Shown here piece by piece: positions 4,077-14,114 of a DNA stretch of 64,000 nt (position 1 is its first letter; the number at the start of each line of letters is the position of its first letter). A program made the translations under genes and the position numbers. The notes beneath the pieces are model-generated. The model ran no database searches. It was not told where the DNA came from and worked only from the letters and a program-made list of their open reading frames with translations. Source of the stretch: Candidatus Poribacteria bacterium (GTDB lineage Bacteria; Poribacteria; WGA-4E; WGA-3G); the NCBI GenBank assembly GCA_009841255.1, contig VXMD01000008.1, positions 63,445 through 127,444 of the forward strand. Direction: 5' to 3'.

Positions 4077-4113
4077 GCTGTCAGCAGTCGGCTGGTTTCC
4101 AATGGCTGACAGC
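4077..4113. terminator. inverted repeat between convergent genes
   Basis: GCTGTCAG at 4077-4084 pairs with CTGACAGC at 4106-4113, between two converging genes. The arms also resemble the heptamer-type repeat seen elsewhere (CAGTCGGC). A T-rich run follows on the plus strand (inside the minus-strand gene's end), so it could end plus-strand transcription. Confidence 0.5.
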
Positions 4114-6101
4114 TATTTGAGTTTTTCCCAATCCCAGAGCAGGATTGTGCCGTCGCCGCTACTGCTTGCGAGCGTTTTCCCATCCGGAGAGAACATCAAC
4201 ACGTAAACCGAGCCTTGATGTCCTGTGAGAGTGGCGTGTATCTGGTAGTCCGGATCGGGTTTCCACACCTGAATGAGCCCTTCCCAACTTCCACTGACAA
4301 GCGTCTTTCCATCTGGAGAAAAGGCTAAAGCACTGACATTTTTCACGGCATTGATCGGTCCAGTTCGGTCACCCGTGTTCACATCCCAGAGGCGAATCTC
4401 GTTTCCACTTCCGTTTGCGAGTGTTTTACTGTCGGATGAGAAGGCTAACGCGGTGATAGGCTTCGGGTGCCCGATGAGTTTTGATAAGTTTTGACCGGTC
4501 TTGGCATCCCATAAAACGATGGTTCCGTGTTCGTCGCCGCTGGCAAAGCGCGTGCTGTCGGGTGAGAATATGTATTCGCTCACAGTACCCGTGTGTCCTT
4601 CAAGTGTGAACAGGTGGGCACCGGTATCAGTCTGCCAAAGTTCCACTTTGTTACGGAGGAGGCTTGAAAGCCTAGACCTGCCGGCGAGGGTTTTTCCATC
4701 TGGTGAAAATACCAGGGGCCAGCAATCAAACATCTGGTCGGTGCCTTCCAAGATAGACAGCTGTTCTTTCGTCTCAGCCTCCCACACCTGAATCCCGCCA
4801 AGAAACTTATGTCCTGCAAGTTTTTTCAGGTCTGGAGAGAACATGAGTCTGGAAACTTGTTGTGGAGGTGTAAGGATAGCGTGTTGTGTAAAGGTTTCTA
4901 TACTCCAAACGCGTACCCGCGGTTCAAGTGCGCTATTATTTATAAGATATTTGCTATCTGTAGAAAAGGTGAGGGCACTCGTCCACTCGGCGTGTGCTCC
5001 AAGGGAGAAGGATAACTCGTAGCGTCCGGTGTCAACATCCCAGAGATGAAGGCTGCCATCACTACTCACGCTCACGAGTTGGGTGCCGTCTTTAGAGAAT
5101 TTCACACTATAAACGTCATCCCGCTTCCCAGGAAGAACGCCCCATTCAAGCAGTTTGAGCACTTGGTTTGCTGCCACGAGTGGATTGATTTTATCGTCAG
5201 GGGAGGGAAAATTCTTCTGTTCGGTGCCAGTGCTGATATCCCACAGTCGCATTGTCTTATCACGACTTGCGGTGATGAGTCTGGTGTTATCTGGCGAAAA
5301 CGCCATGTCACGAATTTTACCGGTGTGGCCTTTGAGAGCGGTCAGGAGCGTACCTGTATCGACATCCCACAGATGCACCGTGTGGTCCCACCCTCCTCCG
5401 GTTGCGAGTGTTTTGCCGTCGGGTGAGAAGGCGAGTAGGTCAATGGATCCCAAGTCTTTACTATCGGCATGTAACAGCTCACCGGTGTCGGTATCCCACA
5501 GACGGAGCGTGCTTCCCGCACTCGCAAGAATTTGACCGTCTGGCGAAAACGCGACCGCATTGACTGCACTCGGATGCCCTTTCAAACTGTTGATATATTT
5601 ACCGGTGTTGACCTCCCATAAACGCACCGTCCAGTCTCCACCTGCAGTGGCGAGTTTTGTGCTATCGGGTGAAAGGGCGATTGCGTTGATTACGTCGGGA
5701 TGTTCATTGAGCATAGCAAAGGCGTTTCCTGTGAAGGTGTCCCAGACGTAAATGCTGTTTCCGTGTGCAGTCGCGACAATTAAAGCGTCGGGTGAGAAGG
5801 CCAATGCCTCTGGTGGTGTTTTGGACAAAAATCTGTCCATTTCGTCGATTTGTGTTTCCGTGAACAGTGAAACGACTTCGCCGGTCTGTGCATCGTAAAT
5901 CCAGATGCCGATCGGAGTTGACGCGACAACGCGTGTGCTGTCGGGTGAGAGTTTGATATTAATTACTCTGCCCCTTCCGAGACGGGCTTTTGCACCTTCG
6001 GGCAGATGCCATTGTGTCGCAAAGTCCTGTGCGAGACTGTTGCGTAGCAGTAAACTGGAAAGCAAAAGACATACGATATAGAGAAGGTGTGTCTTTTTCA
6101 T
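4113..6101 (-). CDS. secreted WD40-repeat protein, 14 repeats
   Basis: 662 residues: a Sec signal peptide (MKKTHLLYIVCLLLSSLLL, cleavage likely after SLAQ) followed by about 14 WD40 repeats, enough for two seven-bladed propellers. Repeats carry the usual AFSPDGKTLASGS and LWD...TG signatures. No enzymatic domain is present, so it probably acts as a binding scaffold in the periplasm or outside the cell; partners are unknown. The first 60 residues closely resemble those of the WD40-protease at 7373-9820 (both have WHLP.GAKARLG after the signal peptide), so the two are paralogues. An AAGGAG stands before ATG 6101. Confidence 0.88.
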   Translation of the reverse strand: MKKTHLLYIVCLLLSSLLLRNSLAQDFATQWHLPEGAKARLGRGRVINIKLSPDSTRVVASTPIGIWIYDAQTGEVVSLFTETQIDEMDRFLSKTPPEALAFSPDALIVATAHGNSIYVWDTFTGNAFAMLNEHPDVINAIALSPDSTKLATAGGDWTVRLWEVNTGKYINSLKGHPSAVNAVAFSPDGQILASAGSTLRLWDTDTGELLHADSKDLGSIDLLAFSPDGKTLATGGGWDHTVHLWDVDTGTLLTALKGHTGKIRDMAFSPDNTRLITASRDKTMRLWDISTGTEQKNFPSPDDKINPLVAANQVLKLLEWGVLPGKRDDVYSVKFSKDGTQLVSVSSDGSLHLWDVDTGRYELSFSLGAHAEWTSALTFSTDSKYLINNSALEPRVRVWSIETFTQHAILTPPQQVSRLMFSPDLKKLAGHKFLGGIQVWEAETKEQLSILEGTDQMFDCWPLVFSPDGKTLAGRSRLSSLLRNKVELWQTDTGAHLFTLEGHTGTVSEYIFSPDSTRFASGDEHGTIVLWDAKTGQNLSKLIGHPKPITALAFSSDSKTLANGSGNEIRLWDVNTGDRTGPINAVKNVSALAFSPDGKTLVSGSWEGLIQVWKPDPDYQIHATLTGHQGSVYVLMFSPDGKTLASSSGDGTILLWDWEKLK

Positions 6102-7372: not shown

Positions 7373-9820
7373 TTATTTCACCTTACGGAGCAATTCCTTG
7401 AGATAATTTGATGGAACAGCGAAATTGAGATTTTGTGCATCTAAATCTCGGTGTACAGAAACTGACACACCTATTACCTTACCATTTTCGTTTAGGACAG
7501 GGCCGCCGCTGTTTCCGGGAGAAATTGGTGCGTCAATTTGGATACGGGCACCTCTATCACCAAAATCTCGTATACTACTGATAATGCCCCGTGAAACTGT
7601 CCCTTGCAAGCCTTTAGGATTACCGATGGTATAGATAGTTTCACCTATGTGAACATCATCGCTGTCACCGAGGTCAAGGACTGGATGCTCAGTAATGGAA
7701 ATCTTGATAATGGCGAGATCGTATTTTTCATTTATCTCTGTGATTTCCTCAACGGTATATGTTATATCATTTGCAACGGATTTCACGTAAGTCGCCTCTG
7801 CCCCTTTAACAACATGGTAGTTAGTCGCAACATAACCCGGATGGACGAAGAACCCGCTTCCCTGTGAATCTTGTCCTTCTCCTTTCCCTATTTTCAAATG
7901 AACGGTGGAATTAAGCGCACTTTGAATGAGTGGTGTTGCCTTATGCTTTTTTAGTCTATGGATTTCTTCTGTCTGAGCTGGTTGTCCCCCCACATTCCAG
8001 AGTAGAATAGTGCCATCCTCACTACCACTAACGAGGGTAGTGTCGTCTTTGGAAAAAACGAGAGCAGTTATCTTACGGGTATGACGGGTGGTGATTTCTC
8101 TCTTATATTTTTCAATAGCATCAAATAGCCAAATTGTTCCTATCTCATTCCCAATTGCGAGAAAGCGAGCATTACGAGAAAATGCTAAGGCAGTAATAGG
8201 ATTGAAATCAGGTTCAGCAACGCGATCTTCTTCCCCGCTTAGTGCGTTCCACTGACGCACGCTTCCGTTTTCTTCCCCGCTGAAAAGGATGGTGCCATCG
8301 TAGACGAATGTCAACGCGGTAACAGTGCTCTGGGCACCTCTGAGTGTTTTGAGTTCTCGCCGAGTGTTAATATTTATTAGGTGAATCTTTCCGTCCTTGC
8401 CACCACTAGCAAGCGTGGTATCAGCGGGTGAGAATGAGAGCGCAGTGATACCATGAGTATTTCCTGATAGTATTGAGATTAAACTTTCTGTATCCAAGCT
8501 TTCGCTATTTATAAGAATCTTGGGAACATCAGATAAGAAAATCGTGTCATCTTCGTCCCCACCACTGGCGAGTATTTTGCCATTTTTAGAAAAAGCAACT
8601 GCTTGCGTTAAACCTGTATGTTCTCGGAGTATAGAAAGTTCGCTGCTTGTGCCGGCATCCCACAGTCGAAGTTTACCGTCCAATCCTGTACCGCATGCAC
8701 GAATACGGTTATCTTCTGTGTACACCAAAGTCTTGACCCCACCGGTATGTCCTGGTATCTTGATTCTTGCACGGTTACCAACTCTATCCCATAATAGTAT
8801 TGTACCATCTGGGCTACCGCTGGCAAGAGTATCATCGTCTGGTGAAAAATCCACATCTGACACTAAATCTTTGTGTCCTGTCAGGATAAAATTACGTTCT
8901 GCTGTGCGTGTATCCCATAATTGAATTGACTTGTCTGCGCTGCCTGTGGCAAAGGAGTTTCCATCTGGAGAGAACTTCACTGCGTATACCGGTGTATTAT
9001 GTTGTGTTGGGGAATGGAGTATGCCGCCAGCACCAACAAGACTCCACAGCCGGACAGAACCGTCCAAGCTAGCACTCGCAAGGCTGGTTCTGTCAGGTGA
9101 AAAATCTACCGCCCAAACTGAACCTGTATGCTCTTTAAACTCATAAATTTGGTCTCCTGTACCAGCATCCCAGACTTGAATGGTACCATCTCCACTTCCA
9201 CCAGCCAATAGTTGATTATCTGGTGAAAATGCCACGGTGTAGACAAAACCCTTATATGGTAGAATTGAAATCAGTTTTTCGTCGTGGACATTCCAGACTC
9301 GGATAGTGTTGTCTGCACTTCCACTGGCAAGTAGACTGCCATCTGAGGAGAATGCAATATCATAGATAGCCCCTGTATGTCCCTCAAAAATAGATAGTGG
9401 TTCTGGAGAAGTAGAAGTAGGCATTGAATTGCGATAGTCGTTGCTGACGTCCCACAATCTAATCTTCCTGTCCCAGTGTGCCACTGCAAGAATAATTCCA
9501 CCCGGGGAATACGAAATAGCGTTGGCTCCGCCCATGGATTCAGGGAATAACTTTGGTTTTGCCTCATCGGTATAGACATCTGTTATCAAATCAATTTCCT
9601 TGCCAGTGCGAACATCATAAATCCAAACGCCAATAGTCGTTGCGACAGCTAACCGATCTCCGTGAGGTGAAAATTTTATATCATTTATCCAGCCTTTGCC
9701 GAGGCGCGCTTTTGCACCTGGTGGTAAATGCCATTTTGTATAATCTTGCGCGAAAATATCCAATAGTAACAAAGTAGTGTTTAATACTACAGCAACGAGT
9801 AGAACGTATTTCTTTTTCAT
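7373..9820 (-). CDS. secreted WD40-repeat protein fused to a trypsin-like (HtrA-type) serine protease
   Basis: 815 residues from ATG 9820, which has AAGGAA upstream; an in-frame ATG 14 codons earlier is less likely. Order: signal peptide (ending near DIFAQ), about 13 WD40 repeats (residues 30-620), a short linker, then an S1C/trypsin-like peptidase. The full catalytic triad is visible: His669 in TNYHVV, Asp701 in KYDLAIIK and Ser771 in GNSGGPV. No PDZ domain follows, unlike DegP. A periplasmic or surface protease whose substrates are chosen by the propellers is the simplest reading (inference). The N-terminal module matches the neighbouring WD40 protein. Confidence 0.9.
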   Translation of the reverse strand: MKKKYVLLVAVVLNTTLLLLDIFAQDYTKWHLPPGAKARLGKGWINDIKFSPHGDRLAVATTIGVWIYDVRTGKEIDLITDVYTDEAKPKLFPESMGGANAISYSPGGIILAVAHWDRKIRLWDVSNDYRNSMPTSTSPEPLSIFEGHTGAIYDIAFSSDGSLLASGSADNTIRVWNVHDEKLISILPYKGFVYTVAFSPDNQLLAGGSGDGTIQVWDAGTGDQIYEFKEHTGSVWAVDFSPDRTSLASASLDGSVRLWSLVGAGGILHSPTQHNTPVYAVKFSPDGNSFATGSADKSIQLWDTRTAERNFILTGHKDLVSDVDFSPDDDTLASGSPDGTILLWDRVGNRARIKIPGHTGGVKTLVYTEDNRIRACGTGLDGKLRLWDAGTSSELSILREHTGLTQAVAFSKNGKILASGGDEDDTIFLSDVPKILINSESLDTESLISILSGNTHGITALSFSPADTTLASGGKDGKIHLININTRRELKTLRGAQSTVTALTFVYDGTILFSGEENGSVRQWNALSGEEDRVAEPDFNPITALAFSRNARFLAIGNEIGTIWLFDAIEKYKREITTRHTRKITALVFSKDDTTLVSGSEDGTILLWNVGGQPAQTEEIHRLKKHKATPLIQSALNSTVHLKIGKGEGQDSQGSGFFVHPGYVATNYHVVKGAEATYVKSVANDITYTVEEITEINEKYDLAIIKISITEHPVLDLGDSDDVHIGETIYTIGNPKGLQGTVSRGIISSIRDFGDRGARIQIDAPISPGNSGGPVLNENGKVIGVSVSVHRDLDAQNLNFAVPSNYLKELLRKVK

Positions 9821-9917
9821 ATAGCACAGTTCCTTCTGAGTAGTTATTTCACAAAAATGCACATTCGCGTATTCTACATTTTGACACCCACTTAGTTTAA
9901 TGTCAAACTCTTTTAAG

Positions 9918-9942
9918 GTAGGGTCATTTAAAATGACCCTAC
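9918..9942. repeat. palindromic GTAGG-type hairpin
   Basis: Twelve-base arms (GTAGGGTCATTT / AAATGACCCTAC) around one central base. It lies between the end of the TPR gene and the start of the WD40-protease gene, so it may also end the TPR transcript. It starts GTAGG like other hairpins in the window. Confidence 0.7.
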
Positions 9943-10032: not shown

Positions 10033-11952
10033 CTAATCTGCAATAGAGTCCAAAAGATCTTGTACTGGTTCATAATTTGGATTAATGTTTAAGGCTGCGT
10101 TCGCTGCATTTCTCGCGGCTTCAAATTTGCCAATTCTTAAGTAAGCGATACCGAGATTAAAATACGCCTCTATAAAATCTGGGTCAATACGGGTTGCCTC
10201 TTGAAGGGTGGGTATCGCCTTTTCATATGATCCCTGCTCAATATAAGCAACCGCCAAGTTGCAGTGTGCTTCTTTAAATTGCGAATCATGTTTTAATGCC
10301 TTTTGGAATTGGACAATTGCATTACGATATTGTTTCTGATCAAGGTAAGAAAGTCCTTGTCCGTAGTGTTTTTCTTTTGCTTTTTCTATAGTTATATGGG
10401 ATTGCCTTTTTGGGGTGTTGCTATCTTCATTCCTATCATCTTTGGAAGTCTGTGTTTTTTGCCTCGTAGTTTTACCATTAGGTTCGGGTGGGATTTTATC
10501 TTCCGTTTGATATCGCTTTTCTTCCGCTGTATTTTTAAAAGACTCCATACGACCAAGAAATCGCTGTTCAGTTAGATTGCCACTGATAGCATACTTCGTG
10601 TTGGCTTCTACAACTGTATTAATTACCGACTGCCATTTGGATGCATATCCTGGTGTTTGTGCCCAGTCAGTGTATACTAAAGTCAATCGATAATAGGCTT
10701 CAATAGCATTTGAACTGTCCCCATAATTGTTAATAATTCTCCTGAAGGCGTTAACTGATTTACTGAAAAGTGTTACATCCGTGAAAGCAGCGTAGTGGTA
10801 ACACCTGCCAGCCCAATAGAGCGCGTACACTGCATCTTCAACAAGTGGATTCGTGTTAGCAGAATATTCATACTGCTGAGCAGCTTCTGCATAAAGTTTT
10901 TGTGCTCGAAGAAGGTTAGCTTTAACAAGAGCCTTATCATCCCTAGATGTTAGGGCTTCAATCTTAGAATCGTCGCTTATGTACTGCGGTATAAGATAGG
11001 TGTTTTGATATCTCTCGTAAACTTCTTTTTTTTCTCCTTCAGTATCTTCTTCTGCCAAGCGGTTCAAGGCTTTCTTATAACTGTCTCGGGCATTCTTGCT
11101 ATCCCGCATCTTGAAATAAAGATCGCCCATATCAACATAAGCTTTAGTAGCATATTGGCTTTCCGGATATTGTGTCACAATATTTATATATCGTTGAAGT
11201 GCTGCATTAACACTGCCCTGCTGTTTTGAGGCACGAGCGTTGTCGTACATTATCTTAGCTTGCCGTTCTGGATCAGGCTTAGACCAGTCCTGATGGTCAT
11301 CATCAGAATCTTCGGAAGATTTTCTTTGTTCATCCGGTGGTTCAAATTCGGCAATACGCTGTTCCGTCTCCGCCTTAAATTCAGAATGTGGAAACTCAGC
11401 AATAAGTTTTTGGAAAGTCTCTTGTGCTGCGTCATAATCTTGATATTGATAGTTAATCTCCCCAATAGTATAAAGTGCCTTTGCCACCCAGCGACCATTT
11501 GGAAATTTGTCTATTAGTTGCAGGAATTTAGACTTTGCTTGATTGAGGTCTCCGGTTTTGTAAAGGATATCTGCCCAGAGATAAGTGAGTTCTTCTTCGT
11601 GTTTGGGAACCTTGGCATCCAATACCACCTCTCTAACATGTGTAAGCGCGCTTTGATAGTCTCTGTCATCGCTGCTGTCCTCAGCGAGTTCATAGTAGCA
11701 TTGCGCGATTTTAAGATTGGCGAGGGTCGTAAAGTCCGGGTCGATCCGCTCCGTTTTGGCGCCGAGTTTTTTTGACTCTTTTAGTGCTGCTTTGTATTTT
11801 ATAATTGCGCCTTCATAATCTGAACGTTCATATAACGCTTCAGCGGATTCAAAAAATCTTTCTACTTTTTGAGCACTCCCTAAGACAAGGGGGGATAAAA
11901 GGGCAAGCACCAAGGCGACTCCCCCGATGATACCCCAAATTCTGTCATTCAT
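10033..11952 (-). CDS. exported TPR-repeat protein
   Basis: 639 residues. An N-terminal hydrophobic segment (IIGGVALVLALLSPLVLG) acts as signal peptide or anchor. It is followed by TPR units typical of YbgF/BamD-like proteins (residues 30-210), an acidic low-complexity linker (SSEDSDDDHQDW), more TPRs, a second charged linker, and a C-terminal three-TPR block that copies the unit repeated in the upstream gene. Probably a periplasmic protein-interaction scaffold. Three consecutive ATGs follow AAGGAG directly; the third (11952) has the best spacing. The stop of the upstream gene overlaps the first ATG, so the two are translationally coupled. Confidence 0.87.
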   Translation of the reverse strand: MNDRIWGIIGGVALVLALLSPLVLGSAQKVERFFESAEALYERSDYEGAIIKYKAALKESKKLGAKTERIDPDFTTLANLKIAQCYYELAEDSSDDRDYQSALTHVREVVLDAKVPKHEEELTYLWADILYKTGDLNQAKSKFLQLIDKFPNGRWVAKALYTIGEINYQYQDYDAAQETFQKLIAEFPHSEFKAETEQRIAEFEPPDEQRKSSEDSDDDHQDWSKPDPERQAKIMYDNARASKQQGSVNAALQRYINIVTQYPESQYATKAYVDMGDLYFKMRDSKNARDSYKKALNRLAEEDTEGEKKEVYERYQNTYLIPQYISDDSKIEALTSRDDKALVKANLLRAQKLYAEAAQQYEYSANTNPLVEDAVYALYWAGRCYHYAAFTDVTLFSKSVNAFRRIINNYGDSSNAIEAYYRLTLVYTDWAQTPGYASKWQSVINTVVEANTKYAISGNLTEQRFLGRMESFKNTAEEKRYQTEDKIPPEPNGKTTRQKTQTSKDDRNEDSNTPKRQSHITIEKAKEKHYGQGLSYLDQKQYRNAIVQFQKALKHDSQFKEAHCNLAVAYIEQGSYEKAIPTLQEATRIDPDFIEAYFNLGIAYLRIGKFEAARNAANAALNINPNYEPVQDLLDSIAD

Positions 11953-11954
11953 CA

Positions 11955-14114
11955 TCATCTCCTTGGTCGTTCAGGTTCCGGTGTTACTGGTATAATCGTG
12001 AAGCAAAATTCATTGGTTGTGAGGAGTGTTCTATTCTCTCCAAACAATTGGATTTCTAAGGCTTGGTCGCGCCCTTGCACTTTCTTATCGGCTGTAATCG
12101 GGATTCGAATAGTTTCTATACTGTTTTGACGCAATTCTGGAATCATCGTGGGTTTTCTGAAGGTTAAACCTGCTATAGACGGTGGCTCAAATCTAAGTTC
12201 GACATTGCGAGCTGGACCACCCTTATTGCTGATGGTTAACCTGATACGACCCGTCTCCCCGGCATCAAGGAAACCGTTGCCTGACGGTTCTTCTAAAGAG
12301 ACTATTATGGAAAGAATAGGATCCGGAGGGGCTGGCTTGGGCCAGAGAAAGAAAGCAAGTATCCCAATAATGCCTAAAACAGCAGTATAAGACAGGCTTT
12401 TTTTCCAAAATCTTTCTCTACGCTGGTTGGTTTCGACGTGCCGTATTGCTGTAAGCAGTTCGTGTATGAGTTGACGATCAACTTTCAGTTTTGATGCCTC
12501 TTCCGCCGCTGTTTTCGCGTCATTGAGTGCTCCCATTTCCAGATAAGCGACACCTAAACTGTAATGAGCATCTGCAAAATTTGGATCTGCCTTTATTACT
12601 CTTTTGAATGCGGCGGCAGCTTCGTTATATTGCCCATTGTTGAGGAATGCTTCTCCACGCTCATATTGCTTTTTGACGTCTGTGGCGTTTGAAGGCATAC
12701 GGGAGGGTTGCGTAGATTGGATTGGTCGTGCTTGCCTGATGTCATCCAGAAGTTGACGCGCGGGTTGCGAGTTGGCATCAATCCTTAACGCCGCATTCGC
12801 CGCATTTTCTGCCTTATCAAGTTGTCCCATCTCAAGATAAACTTCGCCTAAACTTGTGTGCGCCGCTACGAAATCGGAATCCAGATCTATCGCTTTTTGG
12901 AACTCCGTAATCGCCTCTGTATACATTTTTGAGTCTCGGTAAGCGGTGCCGAGTTCATGGTGCGTTTCCTGCCTCAATTTCAGAGTGGGTTGTGGCTTTA
13001 CGGGTTGCTCTGGTTCTGAAGGCGTAGCAGCCTGTATCTCAGGTGGCGTGAAACTCGGATCGATGGCTTCTAAGAGAGAAAGTGCGGGTTGATAGTTTGC
13101 GTCCAGTTTCAGCGCATCCCTGGCAGTATCTCTTGCCTTTCCAAGTTCTTGTTGTCCGAGGTAGGCAAGGGCAAGCGAGTGGTATGCGGCTTTATAGTTA
13201 CGATCCAAGGTTACCGCCTTCTGAAGGGCATCTACAGCGCGAGGGTAGGTTTCCATCTTGAGGTAGGTTAACCCGAGATTGTAATGTGCAGTGGTAAAAT
13301 CGGGATCGAGTGTTATTGCGTTCTGGAAGGCTGTAACGGCTTCGCTATAGCGTTCATCGTTAAGATAGGTGATGCCTTTGTTGTAGTGTGCCTGTTTTAT
13401 TGCGTTTGCAAGTTCATGGGCGCGTTGATAATTAGGATCGAGTCTTAAGGTTTCTGTAAGGGCATGTGTCGCCGCTTCCAAATTGCCTAATTCTCGGTGG
13501 GCACGTGCGCGGTGGTAGTGCGCACGTTTGAGATTTGGGGCAATCGCTATGGCGCGCTCAAGATGTGGTATTGCTTGGTCGTAGGACCCCTGTTCGACGT
13601 AAGCATAGCCGAGGTTGTAGTGAGCGTCAACAAGATCGGCATCAAGGGCTATCGCGTTTTGTAGTGCGTCGATCGCTTCCTGATACGCCTTTAGTCCAAT
13701 GTAAGCGGCACCGAGATGCGCATAGATATGCTTATTTTCAATATCGGAGACCTGTGAACTGCGTCCTAAATCGGCATCAAGCGTTAAAGCTTTCTGGAAC
13801 GTCGAAACGGCTTCTGCATAGCGTCCAGCATTGAGGTGTTCTTTCCCGCTGCCATAGTATGCTTGTGTTATGGTGTCACACAGCAGCAGCGCGGGTTGAT
13901 GAGTGGGATCGAGTTTTAATGCCGCTGTGACCGAGGTGTGGGCTTTCTCTAATTCGTCCTGCTCGAGATATGCGCGGCAGAGCGCGCAGTGTGCAACTAT
14001 GAAATCCGCATCCAATTTTATCGCGGTTTCAAACTCAGGAACGGCTCTGTCGTATTGCCCCGCCTCTAGATAAGCGATACCAAGGTTATAGTGTGCCTCT
14101 TTTATAGTGTCCAT
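11955..14114 (-). CDS. membrane-anchored TPR protein with C-terminal Ig-like domain
   Basis: 719 residues: about 13 TPRs (residues 1-560), one membrane span (YTAVLGIIGILAFFLWP, near 576-592), then a beta-rich domain of about 120 residues resembling CARDB/Ig-like repeats (GFLDAGETGRIRLTISNKG). With no signal peptide, the TPRs should face the cytoplasm and the Ig-like domain the periplasm. The TPRs come in blocks of three, each closing with a longer linker such as LKLDPTHQPALLLCDTI, so the gene grew by duplicating a three-TPR unit. The start at 14114 has no clear Shine-Dalgarno. Overlaps the downstream TPR gene. Confidence 0.87.
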   Translation of the reverse strand: MDTIKEAHYNLGIAYLEAGQYDRAVPEFETAIKLDADFIVAHCALCRAYLEQDELEKAHTSVTAALKLDPTHQPALLLCDTITQAYYGSGKEHLNAGRYAEAVSTFQKALTLDADLGRSSQVSDIENKHIYAHLGAAYIGLKAYQEAIDALQNAIALDADLVDAHYNLGYAYVEQGSYDQAIPHLERAIAIAPNLKRAHYHRARAHRELGNLEAATHALTETLRLDPNYQRAHELANAIKQAHYNKGITYLNDERYSEAVTAFQNAITLDPDFTTAHYNLGLTYLKMETYPRAVDALQKAVTLDRNYKAAYHSLALAYLGQQELGKARDTARDALKLDANYQPALSLLEAIDPSFTPPEIQAATPSEPEQPVKPQPTLKLRQETHHELGTAYRDSKMYTEAITEFQKAIDLDSDFVAAHTSLGEVYLEMGQLDKAENAANAALRIDANSQPARQLLDDIRQARPIQSTQPSRMPSNATDVKKQYERGEAFLNNGQYNEAAAAFKRVIKADPNFADAHYSLGVAYLEMGALNDAKTAAEEASKLKVDRQLIHELLTAIRHVETNQRRERFWKKSLSYTAVLGIIGILAFFLWPKPAPPDPILSIIVSLEEPSGNGFLDAGETGRIRLTISNKGGPARNVELRFEPPSIAGLTFRKPTMIPELRQNSIETIRIPITADKKVQGRDQALEIQLFGENRTLLTTNEFCFTIIPVTPEPERPRR

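Follow-up and report, generated by a model that had tools for sequence, protein, structure and literature searches.

The gene at 7373..9820 (minus strand) of the window, a 64,000-nucleotide stretch of Candidatus Poribacteria DNA, encodes a single chain of 815 residues. Its N-terminus resembles a signal peptide and is followed by 13 WD40 repeats, then by a disordered linker and finally by an HtrA-like (S1C) protease. We consider it probable that the protein is an exported WD40 scaffold bearing an accessory, exchangeable S1C protease that is active and cuts a substrate held by the scaffold. The modularity of scaffold and protease, as judged by comparing relatives at the same locus, is the new finding. 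The gene coordinates are exact: a GTG at 9862 opens the minus-strand frame 7373-9862, and the ATG at 9820, from which the 815 residues are counted, is the start that agrees with the orthologs. In-frame TAA stops seen in orthologs were an artefact of the GTG-start query and disappeared with the ATG-start query. The gene, its parts and its neighbours are as follows, all on the minus strand.

7373..9820, minus: WD40-S1C protease gene, 815 aa, ATG start
9749..9820, minus: signal-peptide-like N-terminus, aa 1-24, predicted cleavage between A24 and Q25 (ortholog conservation; model helix 2-19)
8756..9715, minus: WD40 blades 1-7, aa 36-355 (repeat search and model; assignment to a first propeller inferred)
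7988..8755, minus: WD40 blades 8-13, aa 356-611, blade 8 being the most conserved repeat
7937..7987, minus: low-confidence linker, aa 612-628 (pLDDT 35-37; near the relatives' recombination boundary)
7376..7936, minus: S1C/Trypsin_2 protease domain, aa 629-815 (domain search and 1l1j alignment)
7814..7816, minus: catalytic His669 (ortholog and 1l1j alignment)
7718..7720, minus: catalytic Asp701 (ortholog and 1l1j alignment)
7508..7510, minus: catalytic Ser771, in GNSGGP (ortholog and 1l1j alignment)
9878..9906, minus: promoter-like site TTGACA-17-CAAAAT, ~58 nt before the ATG (consensus match only)
10033..11958, minus: TPR_B, with an N-terminal hydrophobic segment and BamD/YfiO-like repeats, syntenic partner
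11955..14114, minus: TPR_A, TPR protein with one C-terminal hydrophobic segment, syntenic partner

The two TPR genes overlap by 4 nt, and the ATG of the fusion gene lies 212 nt beyond TPR_B. Upstream of the promoter-like site, at 9918-9942, lies a near-perfect 25-bp palindrome, GTAGGGTCATTTTAAATGACCCTAC, which occurs once in the window. An exported WD40-only paralog of 662 aa (4113-6101, minus strand) is located near the fusion and is syntenic in several relatives of the same genus.

The WD40 part matched the Pfam WD40 model with an E-value of 2.4e-105 (341 bits, compared to a gathering score of 27). A custom repeat search, using a repeat model built from the window protein, and the secondary structure of an AlphaFold2 model agree on 13 repeats or blades. 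These repeats average 35% identity, and thus the array was not recently amplified. The AlphaFold2 model was obtained from 22 sequences (L177, a stretch that contained stops, was left out of the alignment) and has a mean pLDDT of 80.5 and a pTM of 0.68. It consists of an N-terminal helix, 13 four-stranded blades over residues 36-609, the disordered linker (612-628) and the protease, with strand 36-40 probably closing the last blade. The best Foldseek match was the repetitive propeller 2ymu, which was also best by sequence. Double propellers were among the matches as well, for example 1nr0 (TMt 0.59, ~640 columns), and we infer two propellers of about seven and about six blades. Blade 8 is the most conserved: 42% of its columns are invariant when orthologs lacking the protease are part of the alignment. 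It is a likely site for partner binding whether or not a protease is attached.

At the N-terminus, a basic n-region and a hydrophobic core precede a predicted cleavage point between MKKKYVLLVAVVLNTTLLLLDIFA and QD. The K-rich n-region and the hydrophobic core are conserved among full-length orthologs, and the A-Q pair at the cleavage point is near-invariant. The WD40-S1C protein is apparently exported, to a periplasmic or secreted location.

The protease domain matched Trypsin_2 with an E-value of 3.1e-30. Its best solved relative is Thermotoga HtrA (1l1j, E 3.4e-31), with which all triad residues align; no residue of the triad (H669, D701 and S771) varies among 16 aligned sequences, namely the window protein and 15 orthologs of full length (49-61% identity). 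Pairwise dN/dS values for the protease range from 0.04 to 0.24, and by this measure the domain is under purifying selection. Confidence of the structural model is moderate in this part (block means of ~49-86 pLDDT). The score against the Do family model TIGR02037 was 136.5 bits, below the cut-off of 416.2 bits; the protease belongs to the peptidase superfamily, not to the Do family model. No PDZ domain was present among the domain-search hits shown, and the chain ends with the protease domain. Thus, the initial annotation, which had described a signal peptide, about 13 WD40 repeats and a complete S1C triad in one chain without PDZ, is borne out in each of these parts, the first as a signal-peptide-like sequence, and the structure prediction that it called for shows propeller blades.

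The related loci that were named are from Candidatus Poribacteria MAGs. A cassette of two TPR genes followed by the WD40 gene, with or without the protease, is a common locus in two genera of one family, including the genus of the window. Orthologs (E<=1e-90) were found in 21 of 38 genomes of this genus; 12 carry the protease, so the architecture recurs in relatives, where the initial annotation had proposed to look for it, and 9 end after the last blade. The protease-less orthologs occupy the same genomic locus. At one of them, L167, the distal half of the protease persists as an open relic ~870 nt downstream, with repeat-like sequence in between. Mapped onto the WD40 tree, the protease must have been gained or lost at least 5 times, and in a tree of the S1C domains of the phylum the proteases of the locus form one clade, albeit with weak support (SH-aLRT 74). 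The simplest reading of these sequence comparisons would be one old fusion followed by several losses, with regain of the protease by recombination a possibility.

Gene content around the cassette also varies. In many relatives the cassette is followed downstream by an additional gene, whose product has a hydrophobic segment at its N-terminus and a DUF4159 domain (e.g. L065:8708-10090); the window lacks this gene. In three protease-less loci (L168, L169 and L171), a conserved lipoprotein-like gene of 230-260 aa begins ~36 nt after the WD40 gene, at the place where the protease would be expected; one of these was tested and gave no Pfam match. The fused ortholog L179 (genome G071) is in two frames, split within the WD40 part, and represents either a pseudogene or a sequencing error.

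Nucleotide comparison of close relatives points to exchange of the protease. Identity between L154 and L158 is 76-94% across the propellers, rises to 96-100% at nt 1801, where blade 13 ends, stays there until ~250 nt beyond the stop codon, and falls back to 79-93% thereafter; the averages are ~99% in the shared tract and ~87% on both sides. The reverse pattern was observed for L156 and L117: identity is 94-100% upstream and over the N-terminal part, drops to 69-93% in the gene's second half and returns to 88-100% past it. The trees disagree accordingly: the protease tree joins the window protein with L160 and L114 (support 100/99) and L154 with L158 (98/95), groupings that AU tests on the WD40 data reject (p 0.0007 and p 0.006, respectively), and the AU test on the protease data rejects the WD40 pair L155 and L158 (p 0.0007). 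Note that these p values are somewhat optimistic, since the groups were picked after the trees had been seen. The nucleotide breakpoints constitute sequence evidence for exchange that is independent of the AU tests. Chimeric MAG assemblies are the main alternative and can mimic recombination, but each pattern would require two breakpoints, and several independent cases exist. The comparisons argue that the protease has been exchanged separately from the propeller by recombination, and the conflict between the trees extends to the window protein. Relatives retain the propeller at the locus, but their protease has gone missing or been substituted time and again, which gives the propeller the look of a stable scaffold and the protease that of an exchangeable tool.

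In the mechanism that we propose, the exported tandem propeller would provide a scaffold for binding, probably in concert with the TPR proteins encoded alongside, and the flexible linker would tether a putatively active HtrA-like S1C protease to it. With the protease tied to the propeller in this way, the propeller may do the job of the PDZ domain in Deg/HtrA enzymes, holding or bringing the substrate that the protease cuts. That the propeller may position the protease is the best general idea. The scaffold would be the conserved core, and the protease an accessory that some lineages have lost and others have replaced by homologous recombination. The target may be a protein of the envelope or of a host, or may belong to an enemy. 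A more specific version, which we regard as unlikely, is a cassette-type exported effector with a conserved WD40/TPR recognition scaffold, whose C-terminal protease recombination would swap or discard under shifting pressure from a host, phage or competitor; if true, this would in effect be a bacterial modular receptor-protease.

Three other readings were weighed. The protein could serve ordinary envelope quality control, as a Deg/HtrA-type enzyme with WD40 in place of PDZ that degrades misfolded envelope proteins. The relationship to Thermotoga HtrA and the resemblance of the adjoining TPR proteins to the envelope factors BamD/YbgF would fit such a role. However, the same genome has Deg-like proteases whose tails look PDZ-like (L019-L021, by eye), and a protease that is missing from 9 of 21 same-genus orthologs, and exchanged in others, does not fit housekeeping; we consider this reading quite unlikely. 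A second reading is a host-interaction factor, a secreted or surface protein whose WD40 part binds matrix or immune proteins of a sponge or coral for cleavage by the protease; exchange of the protease would then follow from a change of host or from an arms race. Loss and exchange of the protease count in its favour, and so does the biology of the Poribacteria, which live as symbionts of sponges and have many WD40 and other eukaryote-like repeat proteins that have been suggested to act in host interaction (PMC3909097). No outer-membrane secretion signal was found, however, and we hold this role to be distinctly improbable.

Least credible to us is an extracytoplasmic conflict effector, directed against phage or other bacteria, which we judge very improbable. 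In its favour, a second, non-orthologous exported WD40-S1C gene adjoins changing defence-type genes in several relatives, and an S1C-TPR-TIR protein is encoded in the same genome. However, the neighbours at the window's locus are stable, no defence gene was detected among those tested, and PADLOC returned only partial matches there, which were judged generic. Our preferred reading remains the exported scaffold with an exchangeable protease.

Throughout the phylum, S1C modules of the same kind have TPR, TIR, Ig-like and other fusion partners. In the genome of the window, 126 stretches match the window protein, mostly as WD40 paralogs, and 14 match the protease, the partners there being TPR, TPR-TIR or (by eye) FGE-like and PDZ-like parts. 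One of these proteins (L149:3881-6826, C50) has the order S1C protease-TPR-TIR-TPR and has close protease relatives in L150-L152. The second exported WD40-S1C family (L123, L125, L127, L131, L132, L136 and L137) is not orthologous to the window gene; its neighbours include an AAA ATPase with HEAT repeats, a Type ISP restriction enzyme and an N4/N6 methylase-HNH protein, and its surroundings are possibly a defence hotspot. The reversed order, S1C followed by WD40, occurs in L148:2472-4853 and L153:1128-3824, the latter with additional cohesin, dockerin and FlgD-like domains. This independent family and the reversed-order proteins suggest that the WD40-S1C pairing arose more than once in the phylum.

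Outside the phylum, no WD40-S1C chain in the window's order was found in 292 genomes of the phylum of the cyanobacterium Nostoc (G086) or in a set of 18 genomes rich in WD40, drawn mainly from cyanobacteria and Chloroflexi. The two sets share G086 and G092 and together amount to no more than 308 different genomes; in the 292-genome search few candidates were scored per genome and matches were listed at E<=1e-25, so fusions in another order or highly diverged ones could be missed. A Chloroflexi candidate of 1438 aa proved to be an S1C protein without WD40, and plasmid tblastn matches reaching the linker were ordinary proteases where annotated (L232 carried no annotation). Trypsin-plus-WD40 annotations exist in other phyla. 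We found no description of an HtrA-WD40 fusion in the open-licence literature.

Compared with systems already described, the protein is a variant of known parts, both domains being known. It resembles the eukaryote-like repeat proteins of Poribacteria, the same phylum, in which WD40 is abundant and many members have export signals; the main text of that study mentions neither proteases nor peptidases (PMC3909097). With STAND/VMAP/EAD conflict systems it shares the combination of repeat sensors and trypsin-like effectors, and an S8 peptidase with WD40 repeats has been reported at one conflict locus (PMC10907252). These systems are described as NTPase-centred with adaptor domains, whereas the window protein has a signal-peptide-like N-terminus and neither NTPase nor adaptor. 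No STAND NTPase, effector-associated domain or VMAP was found in the protein or in the tested neighbouring genes, and the contrast with intracellular conflict systems drawn in the initial annotation is therefore a fair one. Prokaryotic tandem WD40 propellers (2ymu; PkwA) are another close comparison, 2ymu ranking top by sequence and by fold E-value. Unlike these, the window protein has diverged repeats (mean 35%), is apparently exported and carries a protease, and trypsin goes unmentioned in the main text of a survey of prokaryotic WD40 proteins (PMC5587647).

Sponge symbionts have many unexplained repeat proteins of eukaryote-like type, and the window protein may supply a concrete and testable function for one of them; its bacterium is associated with sponges and corals. 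Fused and naturally protease-less versions at the same locus provide ready-made pairs for asking what the propeller binds and what the protease adds. Do/HtrA (Deg) proteases of MEROPS family S1C share with the window protein the trypsin-like His-Asp-Ser triad, the GNSGG-type motif, apparent export and the best match, 1l1j. In contrast to them, it has no PDZ domain, carries 13 N-terminal WD40 repeats and scores far below the NCBIfam Do cut-off. Exported S1C proteases normally handle their substrates through PDZ domains, and here a WD40 propeller is attached instead.
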